DNA of 30,805 nucleotides from the IMG/VR virus record IMGVR_UViG_3300042691_036128, positions 1 to 30,805 of that record. One strand, written 5' to 3'. The notes beneath the pieces were generated by a model. That model was not told the DNA's origin and did no database searches. It was given only the letters and a program-made list of their open reading frames with translations. The position numbers and the translations under genes are program-made. The number at the start of each line of letters is the position of its first letter. Position 1 is the stretch's first letter. This stretch comes from a virus. Below, one piece after another: positions 487-28,509 of the stretch.

Positions 487-1494
487 ATGGCAATTAAAAA
501 AAATGATTTTACATCACTGAAGAAGAAGTTTTCTACTTCAGCAAAATACAAACCACAAAGATTTTTTGATTTAGGTCAACCATTTTTAGATGCAGTTGGT
601 TTACCAGGTCCTGCTATGGGGCATATTAATATGTTTTTGGGTCACTCTGATACAGGTAAGACAACAGCACTTGTTAAAACTGCGGTTGATTCACAAAAGA
701 AAGGAATTCTTCCCGTGTTTATTATCACAGAACAAAAATGGAGTTTTGAACACGCAAAACTTATGGGGTTTCAGTGTGAAGAAGTTGTTGATGAAGAAAC
801 GGGAGAACTTGAATGGGACGGGTTTTATATATTCAACAATAACTTTGATTATATAGAACAAATTACCGACTACATTAATAGTTTGTTGGATGCACAAGAA
901 AAAGGTGAATTGGATTATTCACTATGTATTATGTGGGATTCAGTAGGTTCTGTTCCTTGTAAGATGACTTATGAAGGTAAGGGAGGTAAACAACACAATG
1001 CAAGTGTTTTAGCTGACAAGATTGGAATGGGAATCAACCAACGAATTTCAGGTTCACGTAAATCTGATTCTAAATACGAAAATACATTAATCATCGTTAA
1101 CCAACCTTGGGTTGAATTACCTGACAATCCATTTGGTCAACCAAAAATTAAGGCGAAAGGGGGTGAAGCTATTTGGTTAAACTCATCATTGGTATTCTTA
1201 TTTGGAAATCAAAAAGGTGCGGGAACGACAAAGATTACCGCAACTAAAGACAAAAGAACCGTGAAGTTTGCATCAAGAACAAAAGTGTCAGTTATGAAAA
1301 ACCACATCAATGGACTTGGTTTTGAAGATGGAAAGATTATCGTAACTCCACACGGGTTTTTACCCGGAAAAGAATCATCTGAAGAGAAGGCTTCAATTGA
1401 ACAATACAAAAAAGAATACGCTGAGTATTGGAAAGAAATAATCGGAGTTGATGGCGACTTTGATTTGAAAGCAGAAAAAGAAGAAGTAGATTAG
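487..1494 (+). CDS. uvsX: UvsX/RecA-family recombinase
   Basis: Strand-exchange ATPase of phage recombination-dependent replication and repair. The 335-aa product carries a Walker A motif GHSDTGKT at residues 52-59 and a Walker B strand LCIMWDSVG ending at Asp151. A conserved Glu (TEQKWSFE, 81-88) sits where RecA/UvsX has the catalytic glutamate that follows the second strand. A GGEAIW segment corresponds to the DNA-binding loop 2 region, and an acidic Glu/Lys-rich tail closes the protein. T4 UvsX is 391 aa, so this is a somewhat short version. The start ATG is preceded by an A-run with no Shine-Dalgarno sequence. It lies between an SSB and an RNase H-like nuclease, matching its role at the fork. 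Stop codon is TAG. Confidence 0.9.
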   Translation: MAIKKNDFTSLKKKFSTSAKYKPQRFFDLGQPFLDAVGLPGPAMGHINMFLGHSDTGKTTALVKTAVDSQKKGILPVFIITEQKWSFEHAKLMGFQCEEVVDEETGELEWDGFYIFNNNFDYIEQITDYINSLLDAQEKGELDYSLCIMWDSVGSVPCKMTYEGKGGKQHNASVLADKIGMGINQRISGSRKSDSKYENTLIIVNQPWVELPDNPFGQPKIKAKGGEAIWLNSSLVFLFGNQKGAGTTKITATKDKRTVKFASRTKVSVMKNHINGLGFEDGKIIVTPHGFLPGKESSEEKASIEQYKKEYAEYWKEIIGVDGDFDLKAEKEEVD

Positions 1495-6656: not shown

Positions 6657-7121
6657 ATGGCAAATGGTATTACATATGGTATAAATTTCCCGTTCCGAGA
6701 AAGTTCAAGAGGGGATTATTTATTGTTAACTGAGTTGGCAAGTGACGAGATTCGCACCAATTTATTACATTTGATTTTAACAAGAAAAGGTAGTAGATAT
6801 TATCTACCTGATTTCGGAACAAGAATTTATGAATACTTATTTGAGCCTTTAGATGGTGAGACTTTTGAATCAATAAAGGCCGATATTGAACAACAAGTTC
6901 AAACCTATATCCCAAATTTAACAATTAATAGTATAACAATACAACCCTATACTGAAACAGATGAAGTTGCAGGTCAGTTGGATTATGAATTACTTGGACA
7001 AGCAAGTATTTATAGAGTTCCTGGTGCTAATACGGCTGAATATACAGCAAAAATTAAAATTGACTACACCGACGAAAACAAGGCGTTTGGTGGAAGAGAG
7101 TTTGTTATTATAAACATATAA
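6657..7121 (+). CDS. 25: Baseplate wedge protein, gp25/TssE-like
   Basis: A 154-aa homologue of T4 gp25 (132 aa), the small wedge subunit that links the baseplate to the contractile sheath. The family core is clear: an N-terminal helix region (LASDEIRTNLLHLILTRKG, about 27-45), then RYYLPDFGTRIYEYLFEP (47-64), which contains the Pro-Asp-Phe-Gly and Phe-Glu-Pro signature. A short beta-rich C-terminal extension follows, ending FVIINI. The gp6 gene starts two bases after its stop, as expected since the two proteins assemble into the same wedge. Confidence 0.9.
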   Translation: MANGITYGINFPFRESSRGDYLLLTELASDEIRTNLLHLILTRKGSRYYLPDFGTRIYEYLFEPLDGETFESIKADIEQQVQTYIPNLTINSITIQPYTETDEVAGQLDYELLGQASIYRVPGANTAEYTAKIKIDYTDENKAFGGREFVIINI

Positions 7122-7123
7122 CT

Positions 7124-8962
7124 ATGGCAAATCAAAAAATTAATTACACAAATAGAGACTTTGCAGGTCTTAGACAAGACTTAATAAATTATACAAGACA
7201 GTATTATCCAGAGTTAGTACAAAACTTTAATGATGCTTCGGTATTTTCAGTATTAATGGATTTAAATGCTGCGGTTGCTGATAACTTACATTTTCACATA
7301 GATAGAAGTATTCAAGAAACTGTATTACAATACGCACAACAAAGGTCATCTATTTATAATATTGCAAGAACTTATGGGTTGAAAATACCTGGTTATAGAC
7401 CATCAGTTGCTGTGGTTGACTTTTCTATTGTTGTTCCACCATTAGGAGATAGTGAAGATTATAGATACTTAGGTATTTTGAGAGCAGGTTCTCAATTTAA
7501 TGGAGGAGGTAATACGTTTGAAACGGTTTATGATATTGACTTCTCAACACAATACAATCAAGAAGGATTTGTTAATAGAACAAAGATACCAACGTTTGAT
7601 GCTAACAATAAAATAATAAACTATGTAATTACCAAAAGGGAAGTAGTTGTTAACGGGACAACAAAAGTTTTCAAAAGAGTGATTAATCCAAGTGATGTGA
7701 CACCTTTCTTTGAGTTCTTCTTACCCGAAAGAAATGTATTGGGAGTAACTGCTATTATTCAAAAAGATGGAACGAGTTACCCAAGTATACCTACTTATTC
7801 TGAATTTTTAGGTGAACAAGGAAGATGGTATGAAGTGGACGCTCTTGCTGAAGATACGGTTTTTATAGAAGATACCACAAAACCGACAGACAATGCGGGA
7901 ATCAAAGTTGGAAAATACATTAAAACGGATAATAGGTTCATAACAGAATATACACCCGAAGGATTTTTGAGAGTTCAATTTGGTGGGGGAACAACAACAC
8001 CAAACCAACAATTACAAGAATTTGCAAAAAATGGAATTAAATTAGATTTGGCGAACTACCAAAATAATATTGGTCTCGGTCTAACCGTTCAACCTAATAC
8101 AACAATCTTTGTTCAATATAGAATAGGTGGGGGTATTTCTACGAATGTGGGTGTTGGTGTAATCAATCAAGTGGGTACTATTGATTTTGCTGTAAATGGT
8201 CCATCAGACGCAATTAACACAAGTGTTCAACAATCCCTCGCAACTACCAATGTTACTGCAGCAATTGGAGGCGCAAATCCACCAACAACTGAAGAAGTAA
8301 GAAATATGGTGTCATTTAATTTTGCTGCTCAAAAAAGAGCAGTAACAGTAAATGATTACAAATCAATAATTGATACAATGCCAGGAAAATTTGGAGCACC
8401 TGCAAAAGTTGCTATTACAGAAAATAATAACAAAATTAATATTCAAATTCTTTCTTATGATACGGGAGGTAAATTGACACAAACCGTACCTAACAACCTT
8501 AAAACAAACTTAGCAAATTACTTATCAAAATATAGAATGATAAATGATTATATATCAATTGATGTTGCAAAAGTCATTGACTTGGAATTTGAAATATTTG
8601 TTGTTTTAGAATCTGATAGAAATCAAGGACAAGTTATCACTGAAATTATTAATTCTATTACAAATTATATGGCACCTGGTAATAGAGAACTTGGTCAAAA
8701 TGTGAATGTATCTGACGTTAGGAGATTAATTCAAAATACGGGAGGAGTTTCAACGTTGTCTGATTTAAAAATTTTCAATAAAGTTGGGGGACAATATTCA
8801 TCATCAGAAACCTCGCAAAAGTATGTTAACAAACAAACAAGAGAAATCGCTTTAATAGACGACACAATCTTTGCCGAACCATCACAGGTGTACCAAATTA
8901 GGTTTGATAATAAAGATATCAAAGTAAGGGTTAAAAACCTTAAAACCGTAGACTTCCGATAA
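7124..8962 (+). CDS. 6: Baseplate wedge protein, gp6/Baseplate_J-like
   Basis: A 612-aa protein of the gp6/Baseplate J family (T4 gp6 is 660 aa), which forms the ring that holds the baseplate wedges together. Residues 5-95 show the family N-terminus: YTNRDFAGLRQDLINY, a QNFNDASVFSVLMDLNA segment and a helical LHFHIDRSIQETVL, followed by ARTYGLKIPGYRPS. A beta-rich middle (about 100-390) precedes the typical C-terminal part (TVNDYKSIIDTMPGKFG near 405, then EIINSITNYMAPG and DVRRLIQNTGGV). The start ATG lies two bases behind gp25. A 73-base gap follows, with two TATTTATT motifs. Confidence 0.87.
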   Translation: MANQKINYTNRDFAGLRQDLINYTRQYYPELVQNFNDASVFSVLMDLNAAVADNLHFHIDRSIQETVLQYAQQRSSIYNIARTYGLKIPGYRPSVAVVDFSIVVPPLGDSEDYRYLGILRAGSQFNGGGNTFETVYDIDFSTQYNQEGFVNRTKIPTFDANNKIINYVITKREVVVNGTTKVFKRVINPSDVTPFFEFFLPERNVLGVTAIIQKDGTSYPSIPTYSEFLGEQGRWYEVDALAEDTVFIEDTTKPTDNAGIKVGKYIKTDNRFITEYTPEGFLRVQFGGGTTTPNQQLQEFAKNGIKLDLANYQNNIGLGLTVQPNTTIFVQYRIGGGISTNVGVGVINQVGTIDFAVNGPSDAINTSVQQSLATTNVTAAIGGANPPTTEEVRNMVSFNFAAQKRAVTVNDYKSIIDTMPGKFGAPAKVAITENNNKINIQILSYDTGGKLTQTVPNNLKTNLANYLSKYRMINDYISIDVAKVIDLEFEIFVVLESDRNQGQVITEIINSITNYMAPGNRELGQNVNVSDVRRLIQNTGGVSTLSDLKIFNKVGGQYSSSETSQKYVNKQTREIALIDDTIFAEPSQVYQIRFDNKDIKVRVKNLKTVDFR

Positions 8963-17778: not shown

Positions 17779-18687
17779 ATGGCATTAGGAACATATGGTA
17801 TCACAAGACCTGCAGATGTATCACCAGATGATGTAGATGTAATATTACATTATACTGAATCAAGAGATGTTACGACTAATTTTACTTTAAAGAAGTTAAA
17901 TTCAAGAAGTATATTGACTCCTTATTTTCATAACGCACAAACTGGCGGTAATGCTAACGTTGAAATACTTGGTGGTTTATATTCTCTTAAATTACCAGCA
18001 TCTGAATTTAATAAAAAAGGAATCTATACGGTTTATTTAAGACCTGCTGAAATAAGAACAACAATAAGTGATTGTGGTGTGCTATCGTCACTACCAAACG
18101 TAAAAGGTATTGTAATCAATCTCAATCAAGTACCTGCGGTATTTAGAAATAAATTTACAAATCAGGGTTTAGTTGGATTTAGAGTTGAATATTTAAATCA
18201 AGACGGAACTAAAATACCTAATTTTTATAGAATTGTAACATCTTCATTTTTTTGTGAACCTGTTGTAACCGAACAAGTAAACTCATCACAGAAATCTATC
18301 AGATATAGATATGTTGAGGGAGGAAGTGATTTAGTTTTTTGTACACTTTCACCATCATCATCACCAACTAACAAACCAAATGCAACACCTTTCATTGGTC
18401 AACCTAATCAAAATATTATAGTAACAAATACTTTTTTTAATCCAATTACAATAGATATCCAAATGGCGGATTACGATATTGATACGTTGGCGATTGCCCT
18501 TTATGGGAACCAAACCAAGAGTATTGAAGACGGCATCTACACTCTTTATGATAGTGCTGGAAATATATATAAACAATATAACTTATTTGAAGTCAGAGAT
18601 AACTTTAATGAATTACTTTATGAAGTAAGACAAGATAGAGGAAATAATATAGACTTTAGTAAAAACTTTACAAATATTATTAGTTAA
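17779..18687 (+). CDS. Putative structural protein (302 aa), unknown
   Basis: Not recognised. Begins MALGTYGITRPADVSPDDVD and is beta-rich throughout, with no catalytic or membrane signature. A Ser/Pro/Asn stretch (LSPSSSPTNKPNATPF, about residues 190-205) may be a flexible linker between an N-terminal and a C-terminal domain; the latter ends in a charged EVRDNFNELLYEVRQDRG helix-like segment. It is preceded by the TATTTATA motif and is coupled to the next gene by a one-base TAATG overlap. Probably a small tail or neck component. Confidence 0.7.
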   Translation: MALGTYGITRPADVSPDDVDVILHYTESRDVTTNFTLKKLNSRSILTPYFHNAQTGGNANVEILGGLYSLKLPASEFNKKGIYTVYLRPAEIRTTISDCGVLSSLPNVKGIVINLNQVPAVFRNKFTNQGLVGFRVEYLNQDGTKIPNFYRIVTSSFFCEPVVTEQVNSSQKSIRYRYVEGGSDLVFCTLSPSSSPTNKPNATPFIGQPNQNIIVTNTFFNPITIDIQMADYDIDTLAIALYGNQTKSIEDGIYTLYDSAGNIYKQYNLFEVRDNFNELLYEVRQDRGNNIDFSKNFTNIIS

Positions 18688-21600
18688 TGGCAAACAAGAT
18701 ATTCTTTCCACCGGGAGGGGTTAAAACATTTTCTGATAACCTTGTAGGATTCCAAATTGTGGATGGGGGTGGACTTACGCAAGGAAACTTTGAATTTACA
18801 ACTGCAATTTATGAAAAAACAAATAGAAGTTTTGACAATGGTGTTTTTTCAGACCCATATACTTTAGAGAATCTCAAAATAGATAACATACAAGAAACCA
18901 AAAAATTAATTGAAAACACATTTAAAGTTTACCCAAACTTTGATATTGCCGAAATTACTAGTTTTTCTTTATATGGTTCACTATCAAAAAGACTTTCAAG
19001 TTCAATAATCAATATCATAAATAAGTTTCCAGCGGCAATACAAGTTAACCAAAGACAACAATCAGGTTTATATACAGGAAACACAGCTTTCAACATTCAG
19101 TATGATAGGGTAAACGATGAAACTAACTTTGATTGTGATTTGGGGTTATTTTTCAATCCGTTTGGTATTGATTGCTCAGTAAATGCCCAAAGAAACATTG
19201 GAACAAATCCTTTCGGTGTAAGTAAATACCGAGACCTTACAACATACTTTGAAAATTATGCGGTTTATTTCAGGGACTTAGTAAAAGGATATGATATTGT
19301 TGATATTGTACCAACACCGACAATGACTGGTGGTACTTTGAATGTCACAATAAAAGGGGAAATGTTCCCACAACAAACAGCAAGTACTTTCACCTTAATA
19401 ATAAAACCAAATAATCTAAAAACAGATGAGGTTTTTACAAATGATTTTGATGAAATTGAAAAATATCTATTAAATAGGCAAAGTGTTCCAATATATACCG
19501 CCGCGTTTTCTTATCCTGATTATGATTCAGATGGTAAGTACACAATTTATAACAAGAATTTGACTTGGCCAATAGGTGATAACTGGAACATATCAATTGA
19601 AGGTCAATTATTTACTCAATACATTAATAACTTACAACTTGTTGGTGAAAAATTAGATGAATATAAAACAAATCTAATAAGTAGATTCTTAATCACGGGT
19701 TCATTCAAAGAGTTTGATACCCCCGACCAAAAAATAGAAAAAGTCTTACAAATTTATGGTAGAGGTTTTGATGAGGTTAAAAAATTCATTGATGCGTTGG
19801 CAAATATGAACTCAGTTAACTATAATGTTAAAAACGACATACCATCACAATTACTTACCAATTTAGCACAAACTTTAGGTATTAATAGTAATATATCACC
19901 TATAACCAACACAGGATTTCTTGATTCAGTTTTTGACCCAAATGCAAAACAAATATATCCTGGACAAAGTATTACTGACACCCCAACTGAAATTAATTAT
20001 CAATATTATAGAAACGTTATCTTGAATGCGGCATATATGTTCAAGACAAAAGGTACGAGACAATCTTTAGAATATGTTATGAGATTCATCGGAGCACCTG
20101 ATGCATTACTTGAAATGAATGAAGTAATTTATGTCGCAGACACAAAAGTTAACTATGACGATTTCTATGAACAATATTGTAAAATATCAGGCGGAACTAC
20201 ATATGTTGAAGTACCTCAGTTAGACCCAAATAATACTTTTAGTTTAATGGGTGTGACTTATACGGGATACACAACTACAGGTTTCATAAAATTAGTTGAC
20301 AATAGTATTGAAGACTACGGAATAGATAGTGAAGGATTTCCAACAAGTCCCGCACAAACTGATAGTACATTCTTTCAACAAGGTGCTGGATGGTTTGAAC
20401 AAACACCTGAACACAGGTCAGGTGAGGTTTTTGATAATGAAAATTCATCATTTAACCCGACAAACCCATATGCAGTAACTACTTTAAAACCATTTACCTA
20501 TGGTCAAGAATATATGGATAAATTCCGTAAATTTCCTGATATTGGTGAAGGTTACACATTGACAAGAATTGCGGATAATAAAAAATCTTGGGCAGTTAAT
20601 GACGTTGGTACAAGAAAAGACGGGGCAAATTTTAACGGGGTTGATTATAAAGTTACTAATGATAAGTTAGTAATTAATTCCAAAAATATAGAACTATATA
20701 CAAATGTAGGTCAAGGTATTACTTATGATATTTGGGATATGTCTGTTAGACTAAACTACCCAATACCAAGTTCAGGACTTACTGCTCCATATCCATATCC
20801 TGGTAATGTTGATTGGACAAAAATCAACCCAAAACCAAACGAAAAAACATTCTTTGAATTTGCACAATCTTTTTATAATAATTTTATAAATGTAAGAAAT
20901 AGACAAACAATCTTTGATGGGAAAACAGGTGGGTACCCAACTTTGCAATCTGTTTTTTGGAGATACTTACAATCTGAACAAACCGTAGGGTTGATTTCAA
21001 ATAAGTACACTTATCAAAAAATGATTGATTTCACTTTAGGTTTGGGTGACCATTGGCAAAGATTATTAGAACAAGTTGTTCCTGGTACGACTTTATGGTT
21101 AACAGGTCAAAAAATGGAAAACTCCATCTTCCACAGACAAAAATTTGTTTGGAGAAGACAAAGAGGTTGTACATTTATGCCTGTAAGTTGTATCCCGTGT
21201 CAGTACAATGGAGAACCATTTAGTTATGATTGTATTGACCAAACTTTGAGTTGTGATGTAAGTACTGATGGTTCAGGTATTTTATCATATGCGATTTCGG
21301 GAACTTTGAATGAAAGTGGATTTACCCAAAACGATTGTGATTTAAATTCTATTGTTACAAATTGGTATATTGATTTGAGATTAGATTCTCAAGTTTTAAT
21401 ACAAGGATTGTTTTATACTGGGTATGGGATGATGGACTATCCGACACCAACACAAATAATAAATGCGATTAATAACAATCTTACTAATTTATATAACTAT
21501 GGGTTGAATTATTACTTTGCTGGAAATACACTTGTAATAAGTAACTCAACTTGTTATGATGACTTCACAAATAGTACTTTGTATTTGAATATAGGTGTTG

Positions 21601-21866
21601 ATTTACAAATTAATTGTGTTCAACCTGTCGCAACAACTCCAACCCCCACACCTACTCCAACACCTACTCCAACCCCGTGCGTAAATACATTATATGCGGT
21701 AACATTTAACGCACCGGGAGGTACTTACGAAACGTATGATTGTAATGGTAACCCATCAACAAGTAGTTATTTGGGTGCTGGAACATTTAATGTTTGTTCT
21801 TCACAGATGATAACAAGTACATCACCAAGATTTGTATCCGCAATAAACGCAGGACTTTGTCCATAA
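18687..21866 (+). CDS. Tail/baseplate protein with P2 gpI-like segment and C-terminal TP linker module (1059 aa)
   Basis: A large structural protein. Around residues 439-470 a YRNVILNAAYMFKTKGTRQS segment, running into LEYVMRFIGAP, resembles the conserved helix of the P2 gpI/tail protein I family, whose members sit at the baseplate edge and carry fibres. Before it lies a helical region (DEYKTNLISRFL, VLQIYGRGFDEVKKFIDAL). Residues about 847-976 form a Cys-containing domain that has a relative in the next gene. A Thr-Pro tract (983-997) then leads to a 62-residue Cys module (YETYDCNGN) at the C-terminus. The layout suggests a baseplate-anchored protein with an added exposed module. A gp7-like role in T4 terms (1032 aa) is possible but not shown. 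Confidence 0.72.
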   Translation: MANKIFFPPGGVKTFSDNLVGFQIVDGGGLTQGNFEFTTAIYEKTNRSFDNGVFSDPYTLENLKIDNIQETKKLIENTFKVYPNFDIAEITSFSLYGSLSKRLSSSIINIINKFPAAIQVNQRQQSGLYTGNTAFNIQYDRVNDETNFDCDLGLFFNPFGIDCSVNAQRNIGTNPFGVSKYRDLTTYFENYAVYFRDLVKGYDIVDIVPTPTMTGGTLNVTIKGEMFPQQTASTFTLIIKPNNLKTDEVFTNDFDEIEKYLLNRQSVPIYTAAFSYPDYDSDGKYTIYNKNLTWPIGDNWNISIEGQLFTQYINNLQLVGEKLDEYKTNLISRFLITGSFKEFDTPDQKIEKVLQIYGRGFDEVKKFIDALANMNSVNYNVKNDIPSQLLTNLAQTLGINSNISPITNTGFLDSVFDPNAKQIYPGQSITDTPTEINYQYYRNVILNAAYMFKTKGTRQSLEYVMRFIGAPDALLEMNEVIYVADTKVNYDDFYEQYCKISGGTTYVEVPQLDPNNTFSLMGVTYTGYTTTGFIKLVDNSIEDYGIDSEGFPTSPAQTDSTFFQQGAGWFEQTPEHRSGEVFDNENSSFNPTNPYAVTTLKPFTYGQEYMDKFRKFPDIGEGYTLTRIADNKKSWAVNDVGTRKDGANFNGVDYKVTNDKLVINSKNIELYTNVGQGITYDIWDMSVRLNYPIPSSGLTAPYPYPGNVDWTKINPKPNEKTFFEFAQSFYNNFINVRNRQTIFDGKTGGYPTLQSVFWRYLQSEQTVGLISNKYTYQKMIDFTLGLGDHWQRLLEQVVPGTTLWLTGQKMENSIFHRQKFVWRRQRGCTFMPVSCIPCQYNGEPFSYDCIDQTLSCDVSTDGSGILSYAISGTLNESGFTQNDCDLNSIVTNWYIDLRLDSQVLIQGLFYTGYGMMDYPTPTQIINAINNNLTNLYNYGLNYYFAGNTLVISNSTCYDDFTNSTLYLNIGVDLQINCVQPVATTPTPTPTPTPTPTPCVNTLYAVTFNAPGGTYETYDCNGNPSTSSYLGAGTFNVCSSQMITSTSPRFVSAINAGLCP
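21633..21677 (+). repeat. Thr-Pro coding microsatellite
   Basis: A run of ACN-CCN codons encodes (Thr-Pro)7 after an extra Thr. It is a flexible linker between the body of the 1059-aa protein and its C-terminal Cys module. Similar tracts occur in the gene at 28559-30190. Confidence 0.9.
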
Positions 21867-21877
21867 AAATTTAGAAT

Positions 21878-24265
21878 ATGTCTTTTGCATGTGTTTCAGG
21901 TCAAACAACAGGGGCTTATAGTTACACCGACTGTTGTGGTATATTAAGAAAAGGAATATCTTTTGGCGAAAGTATTTGTTTAGATGAGGGGTTTACCGGT
22001 TCATCAACAGGTGTTTACATTGCTACAGGTGTTACTTGTACTCAAAACTGCACACAAGGAAACTTAGGATACACTTTTAGTGTGACTGGATTATGTTCGG
22101 CGTCAAGTGGAACAACAATAATAACACCATTTGGAGGAACACCACCATATACTATTGATAATGTCTCACCTGGGTCAATAAGTGCTCAAACAAGTACAGG
22201 TTCTATGACCTTTACAGGTTTAACAGGTGGTACTTATGTTTTTAGGTTGAATGATAGTTTAGGGTTACAAAACAATGAAATATATATAAATGTTTATATT
22301 GGTGATTGTTATAACGCGAGTATTGATGCTAGTGGAACTAATTGTGGTCAAGATGATGGTATTCTATCAATATCTGCGATTACTTCAGGTGCTCCATACA
22401 ATATTGTTCTATACAAAGATGGTAATTACTACGATAATCAAACAACAAACACAATGCCGTTTGATTTTGTCGGGTTACCAAGTGGGGTATATAATGCAAT
22501 TTTATACGATTCAAGTTCAACAACCGCATCAACAGGAAATGCTTTAATAATAACAAGTACTACAATAAATTTTGGTTTTTGGAAAGTAGATACTTCTAAT
22601 TGTGTAATTGATAAAGGTAAATTGTCGGTTACAGGAGTAACGGGTACTGGTCCTTATACTTATTTGTGGAGTAATGGTGAAACGGGACAAACAATAACAG
22701 GACTAACCATTGGGACTTATAGTTGTACTGTGACTGATATTTCTGGATGCACACTAACCCAATCTGAATATGTTGGTGTTGCCGACCCTTTAGGTATAGG
22801 GTTATTGTCGGCATCTACCCCAAGTTGTTTTACATCTGATGGTAGTTTAACATATTTTTTAACAGGTGGAACTGCTCCATTTTATTTTTCAGCATCAACG
22901 GGGCAAGTTGGTTTTACTCTTTCAAATCAATTCACATTAACAAATCTTTCTGCGGGAAGTTACTTAGTAAATGTAAGAGATGCCAATTTCTGTGAAGTAA
23001 CTTTACCTGGATATTTGACATCAGTTAACGGATTTAGTGTTGTTGATACCATTGTAACAAATTCTAATTGCAATCAAAGTAACGGAAGTGTATATGTAGA
23101 AATAAATGGATTGAATGGGGTTTATACCTATTCATTGTCAGGACAAGCAACAAATACATTATATACTGACACCAGCCTCAATCAATCGTATACTTTTCCA
23201 TTTTTACCAAATGATACATATGAACTAACAATTTCAGGTGCGGGTACTCAATGTGTTTACACAACTACCATCAATTTAAATTCCTTACAGAAGTTTTCAG
23301 TTTCAGCAACAACAAGTGGGTCAACTTGCGGAGGAACTAATGGTTTTGCAAATATTTCAGTTAGTAGTGGATATACGGGTGTTTTGAGTTATGTTTTAAG
23401 TAATGGTGATAGTTTAATTAATACAACAACCACGGCTGTTACGTATAATAATTTAATCGCAGGTTCATACACTATAACAGTAACTGACGGTTCAGGTTGT
23501 TCTGTCACTGAACCATTTACTATAATAACTGCTGGTCAGTTAATTACCGCTTTACAAACAACTAATTGTGTCAATGGAAATGATGGTGCTGCTGAAGTTT
23601 TAGTTTATGGAGGTGAACCTACGTTTAACTATAATTGGTCAAATGGACAAACAGGCTCAACCGTGAGCGGGTTAAGTTCTGGTAATTACTATGTTGAAAT
23701 TACTGATAGTAATGGGTGTTATAACATTCAGTATTTTGAAATTAAATGTGTTGGAACACTAACAACATCCTATCAATTGTTCAATCTTTGTAATGACACT
23801 TTTACAACGACGGTAGGAACTAAAAGAGGGTTTTTTGAAATGTTAAATGAAGGATATATTGATATTACTTCAGGTATTACTGGTTGCCAACTTTCAGGTT
23901 CAGTATTTACTTGTGAAATAGAAATTAGTTGCCCTGATTCAGGTTCTACCACATATTCAGTACCTTTTTACACTGGAACAACATTAACTGATATCCCACA
24001 AGATACTTTATGGCAGACAACAATTGAAAGTATTTTAAGTTCAGCAACAACAATAAGTAGTTATTCTATAGACCTATTAAATAACACTTTACAAATATTA
24101 TCAAACTGTAGTGGTGATTATGACCCACTTTCTGATTGTACAATATATCTTAGACTCAAAATTGATTATACTGTTAGTTGTAATGATTGTGGAACTACCT
24201 TTATTTTAACAGAAGATAGTTACTACTTGATAACTGAAGATGGGTTTCAATTAATATATGCCTAG
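21878..24265 (+). CDS. Adhesin-like protein with seven SprB-type repeats (795 aa)
   Basis: A likely host-recognition protein. An N-terminal Cys module (GAYSYTDCCG, residues 1-60) is followed by seven units of about 70-85 residues: 64-142, 144-227, 232-303, 305-383, 386-468, 472-551 and 554-624. Each has the SprB repeat pattern: an early NC or SC, a Gly-rich GGTPPYT-type turn, a GLxxGxY strand and a late Asp-x-x-Gly-Cys. The third (YLWSNGETGQTITGLTIGTY) and seventh (YNWSNGQTGSTVSGLSSGNY) are closest to the consensus. SprB repeats are known from the Flavobacterium gliding adhesin. Residues 625-770 form a domain shared with the preceding gene. The tail ends in a two-fold TED motif (ILTEDSYYLITEDGFQL). 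It overlaps the next gene by 8 bases. No signal peptide, so it is phage structural rather than secreted. Confidence 0.85.
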   Translation: MSFACVSGQTTGAYSYTDCCGILRKGISFGESICLDEGFTGSSTGVYIATGVTCTQNCTQGNLGYTFSVTGLCSASSGTTIITPFGGTPPYTIDNVSPGSISAQTSTGSMTFTGLTGGTYVFRLNDSLGLQNNEIYINVYIGDCYNASIDASGTNCGQDDGILSISAITSGAPYNIVLYKDGNYYDNQTTNTMPFDFVGLPSGVYNAILYDSSSTTASTGNALIITSTTINFGFWKVDTSNCVIDKGKLSVTGVTGTGPYTYLWSNGETGQTITGLTIGTYSCTVTDISGCTLTQSEYVGVADPLGIGLLSASTPSCFTSDGSLTYFLTGGTAPFYFSASTGQVGFTLSNQFTLTNLSAGSYLVNVRDANFCEVTLPGYLTSVNGFSVVDTIVTNSNCNQSNGSVYVEINGLNGVYTYSLSGQATNTLYTDTSLNQSYTFPFLPNDTYELTISGAGTQCVYTTTINLNSLQKFSVSATTSGSTCGGTNGFANISVSSGYTGVLSYVLSNGDSLINTTTTAVTYNNLIAGSYTITVTDGSGCSVTEPFTIITAGQLITALQTTNCVNGNDGAAEVLVYGGEPTFNYNWSNGQTGSTVSGLSSGNYYVEITDSNGCYNIQYFEIKCVGTLTTSYQLFNLCNDTFTTTVGTKRGFFEMLNEGYIDITSGITGCQLSGSVFTCEIEISCPDSGSTTYSVPFYTGTTLTDIPQDTLWQTTIESILSSATTISSYSIDLLNNTLQILSNCSGDYDPLSDCTIYLRLKIDYTVSCNDCGTTFILTEDSYYLITEDGFQLIYA
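22067..23749 (+). repeat. Seven tandem SprB-like protein repeats
   Basis: This stretch encodes the seven repeats of the adhesin. The copies are diverged at DNA level, with no long identical blocks between units 3 and 7 on inspection. They are therefore old or diversifying rather than freshly duplicated. Confidence 0.8.
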
Positions 24266-24471: not shown

Positions 24472-24759
24472 ATGATAATAGAAATAACAGGAGTAACAAG
24501 TGGTCAGTCTCCATATGATTTTTTTATATGTGATGTAACAAACACAGCCTGTTTTTTTGTTTCAGGTAATACAACATTTCCAGGTACAGTGTCTTTCGAT
24601 ACTGAAAATTACTTTCCTAACATTGATATTTTATATTTGAGGGCAATTGATGCAAATGGATGTGTATTTTTACAATTATTAGATTGTGGAACGTATAAAA
24701 TATTTCAGGACGATAATTTTTTCTTATTTATGGATGGATTAAATTATTTGTTCCAATAA
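24472..24759 (+). CDS. Single SprB-like repeat protein with C-terminal FQD/FMDG tail (95 aa)
   Basis: A 95-residue relative of the preceding gene: ITGVTSGQSPYDFFICDVTN, a Cys about seven residues later, and AIDANGCVFLQLLDC. It adds a C-terminal tail KIFQDDNFFLFMDGLNYLFQ made of two similar units (FQD-x4 and FMD-x4). The same tail closes the protein at 30192-30473. The gene starts one base after the previous stop. The tail may be a beta-hairpin used for assembly onto the fibre or baseplate; that is inference. Confidence 0.75.
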   Translation: MIIEITGVTSGQSPYDFFICDVTNTACFFVSGNTTFPGTVSFDTENYFPNIDILYLRAIDANGCVFLQLLDCGTYKIFQDDNFFLFMDGLNYLFQ

Positions 24760-24786: not shown

Positions 24787-25248
24787 ATGCCGGTTAATCA
24801 GTATCTAACAGATAGGAATTTTGTTGCTAGCTCAGCGTTAACAATGACTTCACAAGTTCACATAGTTGTGACTGGTGATACTTCACAAAATCCTGCGGGT
24901 TCATCGTATAAATCAAACCTTGAGCAAATAAATAATTTGTTTGAGTCAATGCCGAGTCTTTTGTATTATAAAACAACATCTATTACTGGTGCGACAGAAA
25001 ATATAAATTATAACTATAATTATTACGGAGTGACATTCTCAGGGAATTGTGGCATTACACTACCAAACCCAACAGGAAAAGACGGATTTACATTTAAAAT
25101 AAAAGATGAGAGAGGAACGTCCGTAACATATCCCATAACTATAACACCATCTTTTGGTTTGATTGACGGAAGCGGTTCTGTAATAATGAACATAAACTTT
25201 ATGTCACTTTCATTTGTGGCAAGAAATAATAATTGGTGGTTAATATGA
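24787..25248 (+). CDS. Short tail-fibre protein (153 aa) with GDTSQNPAGSS N-terminal module
   Basis: Residues about 15-50 (HIVVTGDTSQNPAGSSYKSN plus a short helix) form a module that recurs at the start of the truncated gene at 30496. The rest (GITLPNPTGKDGFTFKIKDE, then PITITPSFGLIDGSGSV and a final NNWWLI) matches the small beta domain seen at the tip of many phage fibres, with its LP, IKDE, IDG and closing Trp positions. The protein is probably a short fibre or fibre tip. The stop overlaps the next start as ATGA. Confidence 0.75.
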   Translation: MPVNQYLTDRNFVASSALTMTSQVHIVVTGDTSQNPAGSSYKSNLEQINNLFESMPSLLYYKTTSITGATENINYNYNYYGVTFSGNCGITLPNPTGKDGFTFKIKDERGTSVTYPITITPSFGLIDGSGSVIMNINFMSLSFVARNNNWWLI

Positions 25249-26465
25249 GTTTTATTTTTAATAATCAAGTATCTTATAGTGATAGTGCAAATTTGGACGC
25301 ATTCGGAAGGTTAAGAACAGCTGCGGTTCAAAATTTAGTGGATATTAAACACGTATATGATAAAAATCCATTACAAATTAATGAGGTTACGGCAGGAACT
25401 GCAACGTCTGTTTTTGACCAACAATACGCAAGAGTTAGAATGTCAACATCGGCAAATAACGATTTAGTTATTAGACAAGGTAAAACACACCCAATTTATC
25501 AACCAGGGAAGAGTCAATTATACCAAGCAAGCTTCTCAAATTTTCAATTAGAAACAAATATTATAAAAAGGGTTGGTGCTTTTACGACAATAACAGGGTC
25601 ACCATACAATTCGGTTTTTGATGGATACTTTTTGGAAAGTAATGGGGTTACAAATGAAATAAGTTTTCAGATATGGAGGTCGGGTACAACAGTTTACACT
25701 GCTGCAACAACCACATGGAACACTAATGAATTTGACCCAATAAATTTAGATTGGTCTAACACTAATTTAATGTCGGTTGATTATCAATGGTTAGGTGTTG
25801 GTAGAATGAGATTTGGTTTAGATTTAGCGGGAATATTAATTTACTTTACAGAGCATAATTGTGCTAATAACGAACCTGATGTTTATATGTCATCACCAAA
25901 TCAACCTATCAGGTACGAAATAAGACAGGTTGGGGTTGGTTCAGGTTATTTTGATATGATATGTTCACAAGTATGCTCAGAAGGAGCATTAAACGGATTA
26001 TATTCAACCGTAGGTGTTATAAACTCAACAACGGCAGATTTAAATTCATCAGGTACAAAATATCCATATATTGGTTATAGGCTTAAACAAGGTTATAAAT
26101 CTGTGACATCACAATATAATAGTTTGAGTATTTTAAACACCTCAAATGATAATTACTTACTAACTGTTGAGTATAACCCTACATTATCTGTAACCCCAAG
26201 TTGGACTGATATACCAAACTCACCATTTCAATATTCAGTTTACAACGGAACTGTGACGGCAACAATAACATCACCAGGACATATTATGTCATCCTTAATT
26301 GGTGAGGCTGGAACATCCGCTCTTACAACCCTTAAAATTGACGACAATCAAATTAGAGTTGGTTCTAATGTTAATGGAACACTTGATGAAATGTGGGTAT
26401 GTATAACACCATTAAGTGCGATGGCGACATTTTTGGGAACAGCAGAAGTATTATATTACTTGTAA
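25245..26465 (+). CDS. DAFGRLR-motif virion protein (406 aa)
   Basis: A beta-rich protein starting at the ATG of an ATGA overlap. The in-frame GTG/TTG codons upstream would only add a few residues from the coding end of the preceding gene. Near the N-terminus is SANLDAFGRLRTA, followed by VYDKNPLQINEV. This AFGRLR pattern recurs in uncharacterised structural proteins of tailed phages. The middle has alternating beta strands (EISFQIWRSGTTVY, RMRFGLDLAGILIYF). The C-terminal part ends in a hydrophobic TAEVLYYL. Its position among fibre genes suggests an exposed tail or capsid-decorating protein. No enzyme motif is visible. Confidence 0.68.
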   Translation: MSFIFNNQVSYSDSANLDAFGRLRTAAVQNLVDIKHVYDKNPLQINEVTAGTATSVFDQQYARVRMSTSANNDLVIRQGKTHPIYQPGKSQLYQASFSNFQLETNIIKRVGAFTTITGSPYNSVFDGYFLESNGVTNEISFQIWRSGTTVYTAATTTWNTNEFDPINLDWSNTNLMSVDYQWLGVGRMRFGLDLAGILIYFTEHNCANNEPDVYMSSPNQPIRYEIRQVGVGSGYFDMICSQVCSEGALNGLYSTVGVINSTTADLNSSGTKYPYIGYRLKQGYKSVTSQYNSLSILNTSNDNYLLTVEYNPTLSVTPSWTDIPNSPFQYSVYNGTVTATITSPGHIMSSLIGEAGTSALTTLKIDDNQIRVGSNVNGTLDEMWVCITPLSAMATFLGTAEVLYYL

Positions 26466-26518: not shown

Positions 26519-27715
26519 ATGAAAATATTTGTACAAATCGCGTCATATCGTGACCCCGAATTATTACCAACAATTAGGGATTGTATTAGTAAAGCAAAGC
26601 ACCCTGAAAATCTAACATTTGGTATTTGTTGGCAAAGAGATGAAACAGAATCTATGGAAGAATTTTCCGACGATTCAAGATTCACAATATTGGACTATCA
26701 TTGGAGTGAAAGTAAAGGATTGTGTTGGGCAAGAAGTGAAATTCAAAAACTTTGGAAGGGTGAAGAATACACTTTACAACTTGACTCACATCATAGATTC
26801 TTACAAGATTGGGATGTGATTCTAATTGATATGATGAAACTCACAGGTTCAGAAAAACCAATTCTGACATCATATGCTAGTGTCTATAATCCAGCAACAA
26901 ACGAACTTGTCACAAATGAACCATATAAAATGGTTGCCGATAAATTCACACCAGGAGGGACAATTTTATTTAGACCACACCCAATACCTGATTGGGAGAC
27001 ATTAACAAAACCAGTACCTGCTAGATTTGTGAGCGGACACTACTTTTTTACTTTAGGTAAACATTGTGAAGAGTATAAGTATGACCCAAATATATATTTT
27101 GCAGGTGATGAAATTAGTTTATCTATTCGTTCATTCACATTAGGATATGATTTATTTCACCCACATATTAATGTTGTTTGGCATGAATATACACGAGAAG
27201 GAAGAACAAAACATTGGACAGACTTTAATGAAGAAAATCAAAAAAGTGGAGTAGTTGAAAAACCTTGGTGGGAAATGGATAATGAGTCTAAAAGAAGACT
27301 TCGTCATATGTTACAAGAAGAAGATAACAAAATAGATTTAGGAATATATGGTTTGGGTAATGTGAGAACTCACAAAGAGTATGAAGACTATGCGGGAATA
27401 AATTTTGAAAAAAGAAAATTACACCCAAACACAACAAAAGGTATAGACCCACCAATAAACGATTTAACCGATTGGTGTAAAATAGTTGAAGAAGAATATG
27501 AGTTTGACATAGTAATTCCTGAAAGTGAAAACTTTAAGTTCCTTTATATTGGGTTTGAAAATGAAAAAGGTGAGGTAATTCACAGAAAAGATATGGTTAA
27601 TTTCAAAAGAAATGTTACAATAAAATTCAAAAGTTATGATAAACCAGTAAAGTGGATTTATTGGTTACATACAAATGAGGGTGAATGGAGAAATAGATTA
27701 GAATTTAAATTATGA
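26519..27715 (+). CDS. GlcNAc-transferase family glycosyltransferase (GT60-like)
   Basis: A 398-aa cytoplasmic enzyme of the PF11397 GlcNAc-transferase type. The N-terminal GT-A strand is IFVQIASYRDPELLPTIRDC, typical of the family. The metal-binding position is LQLDSHHRF (86-94, Asp89 and His91) in place of a classical DxD. Later come FVSGHYFF and AGDEISLSIRSFTLGYDLFHP, the acceptor-side Asp/Glu region. Residues from about 300 add a beta-rich extension without recognised function. Known relatives transfer GlcNAc from UDP-GlcNAc to hydroxyproline of Skp1 or to Thr in mucin-like peptides. Here the target is unknown. It sits among fibre genes, one of which is rich in Thr-Pro, and is coupled by ATGA to a second transferase. 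Modification of host surface sugars or phage DNA are alternatives. Confidence 0.82.
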   Translation: MKIFVQIASYRDPELLPTIRDCISKAKHPENLTFGICWQRDETESMEEFSDDSRFTILDYHWSESKGLCWARSEIQKLWKGEEYTLQLDSHHRFLQDWDVILIDMMKLTGSEKPILTSYASVYNPATNELVTNEPYKMVADKFTPGGTILFRPHPIPDWETLTKPVPARFVSGHYFFTLGKHCEEYKYDPNIYFAGDEISLSIRSFTLGYDLFHPHINVVWHEYTREGRTKHWTDFNEENQKSGVVEKPWWEMDNESKRRLRHMLQEEDNKIDLGIYGLGNVRTHKEYEDYAGINFEKRKLHPNTTKGIDPPINDLTDWCKIVEEEYEFDIVIPESENFKFLYIGFENEKGEVIHRKDMVNFKRNVTIKFKSYDKPVKWIYWLHTNEGEWRNRLEFKL

Positions 27716-28509
27716 AAATAGGTGCATTTTATCAATCAGGACACAAATTAGTTGCTTGTTACAAAGCATTAGAGCAATTAAGAAAAATATACCCCGATAT
27801 TCCGGTGGCGTTATATGAAGACGGGTCTAAATTATTAGAACCTGTTGCAAAAAAATTCAATTGTGATTATACGTGGATTAAACAAGAGGGTGAAAACCAT
27901 AGTCATTCAGGAAGACCTGTGAAGGGGGTTGAAAGTAACTTATCTTGGTTAAAAAGAATTTATGATGCTTGTACAACTACACTTAAAGATGTGGATTGGA
28001 TTTTACACTATGAAGATGATGTGTGGTGTAAAATGCAAATTACTAAACACCCTAAATTCCATATTGCAGGGGCAAATGGACCATTGTACACAAATGAACT
28101 ATATCAGTATTTGAAAGACAGATTCAAAGTTGCAGACGATTCTAGAGGTCATTGGTCATCAGATGGTTCTTTACAAAGTTATGGTGGTTGTGGAGGAACA
28201 ATTTTTAATAGGTTAGCATTTATGCATTCTTATCATAAATTACACGAGATTGATTGGGAGGAAATTAGAAAATTAGATTCAAGACCTCTTGAATGGTCAG
28301 ATGCTAGTTTGTCTTTTATAATGCAACATGCCGGATTTACAAGTGGCGTTTGGGACGATTGGGCTCAATATGATAGTAAAGATTTAGGTAATTGGTTTGA
28401 TAAAACTGGATGGACAGTACCAATGGAAGAACAACCTGAAGTTGCATTTATTCACGCTTACAAACATTATTACAATTATCAACCATCAGAAATAGAATTA
28501 GAATTCTAA
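27712..28509 (+). CDS. Second glycosyltransferase-like protein (265 aa)
   Basis: Overlaps the first transferase by four bases (ATGA), so the two are made together. The GT-A pattern is visible: an N-terminal MKIGAFYQSGHKLVACYKAL strand and helix, a nucleotide-sugar site ending in WILHYEDDVWC with the Glu-Asp-Asp acidic triad (near residues 99-101), a Gly-rich SYGGCGGTIFNRLAF segment and a later acidic helix LEWSDASLSFIMQHAG. The specific family was not identified. It most likely extends or modifies the product of the first enzyme. The substrate is unknown. Confidence 0.68.
   Translation: MKIGAFYQSGHKLVACYKALEQLRKIYPDIPVALYEDGSKLLEPVAKKFNCDYTWIKQEGENHSHSGRPVKGVESNLSWLKRIYDACTTTLKDVDWILHYEDDVWCKMQITKHPKFHIAGANGPLYTNELYQYLKDRFKVADDSRGHWSSDGSLQSYGGCGGTIFNRLAFMHSYHKLHEIDWEEIRKLDSRPLEWSDASLSFIMQHAGFTSGVWDDWAQYDSKDLGNWFDKTGWTVPMEEQPEVAFIHAYKHYYNYQPSEIELEF

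Follow-up and report, generated by a model that had tools for sequence, protein, structure and literature searches.

The window, a 30,805-nucleotide stretch covering positions 1 to 30,805 of the IMG/VR virus record IMGVR_UViG_3300042691_036128, encodes a 795-aa protein with a fixed array of seven SprB-type repeats, whose gene is linked to the cassette gene directly before it and whose C-terminal domain is shared with the product of that gene. We favour, with moderate confidence and on the strength of sequence relationships, the reading that this protein is an old, phage-owned, baseplate-linked fibre for host-surface contact. From the same relationships we infer that it is present in the virion, docks there and binds the host surface.

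The SprB-repeat protein and its gene neighbourhood

The preliminary description of this DNA had assigned the repeats to the SprB type, and profile searches confirmed the assignment. Against Pfam-A, the protein matched SprB (PF13573) at E=6.8e-11, scoring 42.1 bits where the gathering threshold is 28; no rival family came anywhere near it for this ORF, the runner-up, Y_Y_Y (E=0.016), falling under its own cut-off. A six-frame search recovered four SprB stretches (E 2.5e-7 to 2.0e-5) and matched none of 14 control genomes. Because the single repeats each score below 28 bits, the SprB assignment stands on the summed score together with the relatives, 18 of the 19 aligned phage relatives also carrying the Pfam match. 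Pfam sees 3-4 repeats in the window protein, and the count of seven derives from the strand pattern of the AlphaFold model and from index-by-index orthology across phages. The claim that the SprB motif runs through seven repeats therefore stood as to their number, but only repeats 3 and 7 show the literal motif (PYTYLWSNG with DxxGC) clearly, the remaining repeats having diverged. Nearly invariant cysteine pairs were seen in repeats 3-7 (C242/C291, C317/C372, C398/C459, C484/C541 and C564/C614). Disulfides between them might arise only after release; virion proteins are made in the cytoplasm.

In the AlphaFold model, built with 19 phage sequences (mean pLDDT 78, pTM 0.31), an N-terminal beta domain is followed by a string of beta-sandwich-like repeats and then by an alpha/beta domain at the C-terminus; at this pTM the model does not predict how the domains are arranged relative to one another. 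Its top PDB fold match was GhpA of Aureispira (E=3.5e-20), with eukaryotic (vertebrate) Ig chains at 1e-12; full-length TM-scores to GhpA are low (0.16-0.17), so that only the local fold is supported. A PHROG search of the protein gave no match. The N-terminus (MSFACVSGQTTGAYSYTDCC) shows no visible hydrophobic leader when read by eye, which agrees with the earlier statement that a secretion signal is lacking. Neither Pfam nor NCBIfam matched a C-terminal sorting domain of the type IX secretion system (T9SS), type A or B, in the window protein; it has no NCBIfam match at all and hence no T9SS sorting domain. PF18962 was matched weakly in 2 of 19 relatives (best 2.2e-5).

Placement in a tail cassette, likewise proposed at the outset, was borne out by gp25-like and gp6-like wedge genes upstream, a phrog_1645 gene downstream and the linkage described below (Table 1). 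The baseplate genes are preceded by genes for a UvsX-like recombinase, a DnaB-like helicase and ribonucleotide reductase. The gp6-like protein is 27.8% identical to the baseplate wedge protein of Flavobacterium phage immuto, which has gp25 and gp6 in common with the window but in which the SprB core and both end domains were not found. Five large ORFs without PHROG assignment (1667, 579, 281, 378 and 302 aa) follow the gp6-like gene, and 11 bases separate the end of the 1059-aa gene from the start of the SprB ORF. A fold comparison did not identify the 1059-aa protein as any known baseplate part: its model is mostly of low confidence (pLDDT 46) and had no PDB match. Downstream, homologues of the 70-aa ORF occur in 67 loci, including 40 of the 46 with enough downstream sequence, a match that does not separate this ORF from its 95-aa paralogue. 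The phrog_1645 gene is present in only one related locus, marking a variable slot. The glycosyltransferase gene recurs in 37 of the 46 related loci with enough sequence, and its product might modify a tail protein with sugar. The ORF after it (region 26519-28509) recurs in 14 of 46 loci.

Table 1. Features of the tail cassette and of the SprB-repeat protein, in window coordinates.
Feature	Coordinates	Strand	Basis or remark
gp25-like baseplate wedge protein	6657..7121	+	phrog_261 E=7.1e-19
gp6-like baseplate wedge protein	7124..8962	+	phrog_219 E=3.3e-23
1059-aa tail-cassette protein, baseplate-type, directly upstream	18687..21866	+	precedes SprB ORF, 78/79 loci
SprB-repeat tail-cassette protein, 795 aa	21878..24265	+	ORF; Pfam SprB; AlphaFold mean pLDDT 78
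N-terminal Cys-rich beta domain, about residues 5-62	21890..22063	+	HMM; phage relatives only
Seven Ig-like SprB-type repeats	22064..23761	+	index orthology; strands in AlphaFold model
Repeat limits, about residues 63-143, 144-232, 233-307, 308-387, 388-473, 474-554, 555-628			
C-terminal alpha/beta domain, residues 629-769	23762..24184	+	relative of upstream protein's C-terminal domain
Short C-terminal tail, ends ILTEDSYYLITEDGFQLIYA	24188..24262	+	similar ends on few neighbouring small ORFs of relatives
Small ORF, 70 aa	24258..24470	+	overlaps SprB ORF by 8 bases
Small ORF, 95 aa, same kind as 70-aa ORF	24472..24759	+	homologues in 65 loci
phrog_1645 virion structural protein	25233..26465	+	E=1.5e-49
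GlcNAc-type glycosyltransferase in tail cassette	26519..27715	+	PF11397 E=1.3e-66; phrog_24687 E=7.9e-103

Linkage to the upstream gene, flanking domains and proposed role

In IMG/VR, 42 relatives of the 1059-aa protein were found; searches of 50,697 phage records and of 395 Bacteroidota genomes gave no match, the latter search carrying low weight as it was run without a positive control. On every contig of sufficient length, the SprB core was encoded downstream of these relatives, either as an ORF of its own or as part of a longer one; in the most distant loci (L039, L044 and L046) no core was detected and single SprB matches were present. An independent search of IMG/VR with the repeat pattern, in which an alignment query worked and a single-protein query did not, returned 79 loci, comprising a total of 392 stretches, the longest contig reaching 297 kb. 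A 1059-type gene lies upstream of the SprB ORF in 78 of these 79, the remaining locus being truncated, so the linkage was recovered independently from both directions and the SprB gene is a standard part of the lineage. Together, these gene-order data support its place among the tail-cassette genes of a large lineage of phages, and the combination of SprB-type repeats with this location makes it very likely that the product is a virion protein.

The domains that flank the array are phage-specific. The HMM of the N-terminal Cys-rich domain matched 94 phage core ORFs, the domain being absent from L025, L028 and L043, and neither this HMM nor that of the C-terminal domain had any match in 79 bacterial SprB loci. 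With hmmsearch, the C-terminal HMM matched 62 upstream-gene ORFs, including the window's own upstream ORF at 2e-4, and alignment of the C-terminal domains of the two proteins with hhalign gave 97.6% probability (E=3.2e-12). In the upstream protein, the counterpart spans roughly the final 120 residues of the conserved portion, and in both models the elements follow the same order, helix-strand-strand-helix-strand-strand-strand. This homology suggests that the common domain is a shared docking part of the two proteins, though its binding partner could be something other than the baseplate. Beyond this domain, a FILTED...LITEDG-type tail recurs on the SprB ORF or on small neighbouring ORFs in L047, L054, L069, L070, L081 and L097; a strict pattern for the tail motif finds 9 ORFs only.

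In the arrangement we propose, the seven Ig-like repeats would form an elongated rod that the C-terminal domain, a relative of that of the adjacent cassette protein, would dock to the baseplate region. The rod would point outward, with variable end modules sharing in contact, and rod and modules together may provide a weak, multivalent touch of the host surface prior to irreversible attachment. Such modules are seen in relatives, where the extensions around the core range from 0 to 2424 aa on the N-terminal side and from 0 to 873 aa on the C-terminal side, and where the N-terminal part of the SprB ORF that precedes the core carries vWA domains (L021:12907-16737, E=8.5e-16; L017:12907-21741, E=1.9e-20). 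Receptor binding by the array would be plausible.

The same variation fits a second reading, which we regard as unlikely but take seriously, namely that the repeats are a passive Ig-like spacer rod and that contact is made by the variable end extensions or by other tail genes. The length and order of the array are fixed while the ends vary, the vWA domains are located in the extensions, and the repeats are not hypervariable, as many receptor-binding tips are; repeat 3, the most conserved, roughly equals the upstream protein in conservation. This lack of hypervariability also counts against a fibre for contact. However, a spacer would be left tipless in the window and in the many relatives with short or no extensions, and the core overall changes somewhat faster than the upstream protein, repeat 2 being among the least conserved.

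A position elsewhere on the particle was also considered, because the PDB sequences that the profile matched best were those of a putative neck-whiskers protein from a phage (E=5.2e-6) and of decoration proteins, matches that we count for the favoured reading as well. The protein would then be a neck or head whisker, or a decoration protein, giving the particle a weak, general hold on glycans or mucus, the role proposed for Ig-like domains of phage capsids, and Ig-like domains together with mucus binding are known from a Flavobacterium phage (PMC6867891). We consider this improbable, since the gene follows the baseplate cassette, the head genes lie about 80-90 kb away in the relative G031, and the C-terminal domain is common to the SprB protein and the upstream cassette protein.

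Age of the array, host and secreted SprB proteins

Repeat order and gene history indicate that the array is old, phage-specific and vertically inherited. Across 26 diverged phages, the best partner of a repeat in another phage was the same-numbered repeat in 91% of 4,550 comparisons. When 1,678 bacterial repeats from 79 loci were added, all 182 phage repeats remained nearest to a same-numbered phage repeat and none was nearest to a bacterial one, even though the bacterial loci had been picked as best matches to the phage profile, a sample that favours closeness. It is phage repeats 3, 4 and 7 that the bacterial repeats mainly resemble; phage repeats 1, 2, 5 and 6 seldom come out as the best match to a bacterial repeat, and the bacterial repeats follow no 1-to-7 order. 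The distances of the core correlated with those of the upstream protein (Mantel r=0.85, 0/999 permutations). Not hypervariable and tracking the upstream gene in this way, the array is unlike a part that switches host range.

These results bear on the suggestion in the preliminary description that the phage had captured the host adhesin fold. Homology to adhesins at the level of the repeats would be compatible with the window phage having recently captured a fragment of a host adhesin gene. Three observations leave that practically no room. First, no phage repeat was nearest to a bacterial one (0 of 182), on which ground the candidate was ruled out. Second, the seven-repeat array recurs in 74 distinct phage sequences, whose identity falls as low as 29%. 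Third, the array is linked to the upstream gene and has a history in common with it. Capture holds up as an ancient event only: we propose that the array was taken from Bacteroidota adhesin repeats, or has common ancestry with them, before the lineage diversified, and that it would since have been inherited with the baseplate genes. Its likeness to host adhesins should thus not be taken as recent theft.

The preliminary description had also raised the possibility that the phage mimics the adhesin. On that account the array would engage the partners of the gliding adhesin, and the particle would be carried along the cell or enter via the gliding or type IX machinery. The repeats are indeed homologous to SprB-type repeats, and in Flavobacterium columnare phage resistance goes with loss of gliding, parts of the gliding machinery being the suspected receptors (PMC7345892). 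But the protein showed neither a secretion signal nor a T9SS sorting domain, its two flanking domains do not occur in the bacterial adhesin loci, and four of the repeats (1, 2, 5 and 6) are rarely any bacterial repeat's best match. We therefore did not retain mimicry, which we judge very unlikely.

The carriers of the array form a widespread group of freshwater phages of very large (jumbo) size, probably myophages with Bacteroidota as hosts. A bS21 gene was present in 5 of 10 tested long-contig relatives, and in G031 it lies amid major capsid (MCP), protease, portal and terminase genes, on the opposite strand; this region is known from G031 and is outside the span of the window. Huge phages with such a bS21 arrangement have freshwater Bacteroidetes as predicted hosts, including one Flavobacterium spacer match (PMC9723584), and the agreement of the G031 arrangement with theirs points to a Bacteroidota host for the window phage. 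A Bacteroidota promoter motif, examined as host evidence, was not enriched (3 found versus 5.0 expected). CsgG, suspected by eye from one protein, was found in 0 of 10 jumbo relatives.

SprB repeats also occur in these phages in proteins of a secreted type. G031 encodes, among phage genes, an 819-aa protein (L206:2756-5215 on the minus strand, corresponding to G031 202,755-205,214) that has a leader peptide, contains SprB repeats and matches the T9SS type B sorting-domain model TIGR04131 at 44.5 bits, above the cut-off of 35. Its best relative in the searched sets comes from the 634-kb phage LR745206 (46.7% identity over 99%), and among 395 Bacteroidota genomes its best match reaches 35% over a part of the protein. 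Near 287-290 kb, G031 also encodes a 636-aa protein (L205:7641-9551, minus strand) with a leader peptide and a T9SS type A domain (TIGR04183, 50.7 bits), which sits among several other leader-peptide ORFs. In the 82-kb G045, three consecutive small ORFs (L215:39-1773) resemble pieces of the 819-aa secreted SprB protein, the second and third having leader peptides of their own and the last ending in a CHU_C domain. ORFs with single SprB-type repeats were seen elsewhere in related phages (L217, L218 and L219), some with PT-rich linkers and with no obvious leader peptide. A match in the huge phage LR756502 was rejected as a tail protein, as its ends mark it as a secreted, adhesin-type protein instead.

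T9SS cargo encoded by phage is already known (PMC7468147). It is conceivable, if a long shot, that the lineage uses SprB twice, as a virion fibre on the adhesin-coated gliding surface and, in some members or more, as a separate secreted T9SS type B SprB protein on the infected cell. If so, the secreted protein could block further phages or change the host surface, and the phage lineage would be built around the host gliding-adhesin system.

Comparison with known systems

It is common for tail proteins to carry Ig-like domains in tandem. The closest named relative is UniProt A0A6J5LD72, a 714-aa protein of an uncultured Caudovirales phage that far outranks all other viral fold matches (E=6.2e-56) and is 33% identical over about 730 columns; its name, 'SprB repeat', comes from the repeat alone, and no description of the family was found in the papers searched. 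In the open-access literature searched, we found no study of SprB repeats from phage tails, and the paper on bS21 huge phages (PMC9723584), to which the present group is likened by gene arrangement alone, makes no mention of SprB or adhesins.

The solved structure closest in fold, the grappling-hook adhesin GhpA (PDB 9flp and related), is 14-19% identical; it differs in being a secreted bacterial protein of thousands of residues, and the sequence profile did not pick it up at E<=1. The SprB adhesins of bacteria match the same Pfam model (PF13573), and phage repeats 3, 4 and 7 are like most of their repeats, whereas the phage protein has no signal and no T9SS domain, a fixed array of seven repeats and end domains found only in phages.

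The nearest described parallel is in crAss-like phages, whose tails carry tandem BACON domains, a Bacteroidota-associated Ig-like domain with a proposed role in host-surface binding (PMC6949934). As here, a tandem Ig-like domain lies amid tail genes; unlike here, the domain family and the phages are others, and in two BACON lineages the repeats arose largely through horizontal transfer of separate domains, whereas the SprB array is fixed. The 'SprB repeat' label on a phage relative and the BACON precedent in Bacteroidota phages are thus already known. What is new is a precisely fixed SprB array in a large lineage of uncultured jumbo phages, tied to one cassette gene with which it has a C-terminal domain in common. 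The array marks where host contact may occur in a group predicted to infect freshwater Bacteroidota, the upstream protein is a testable docking partner for it, and through it a repeat family best known from gliding can be seen from the side of the phage.
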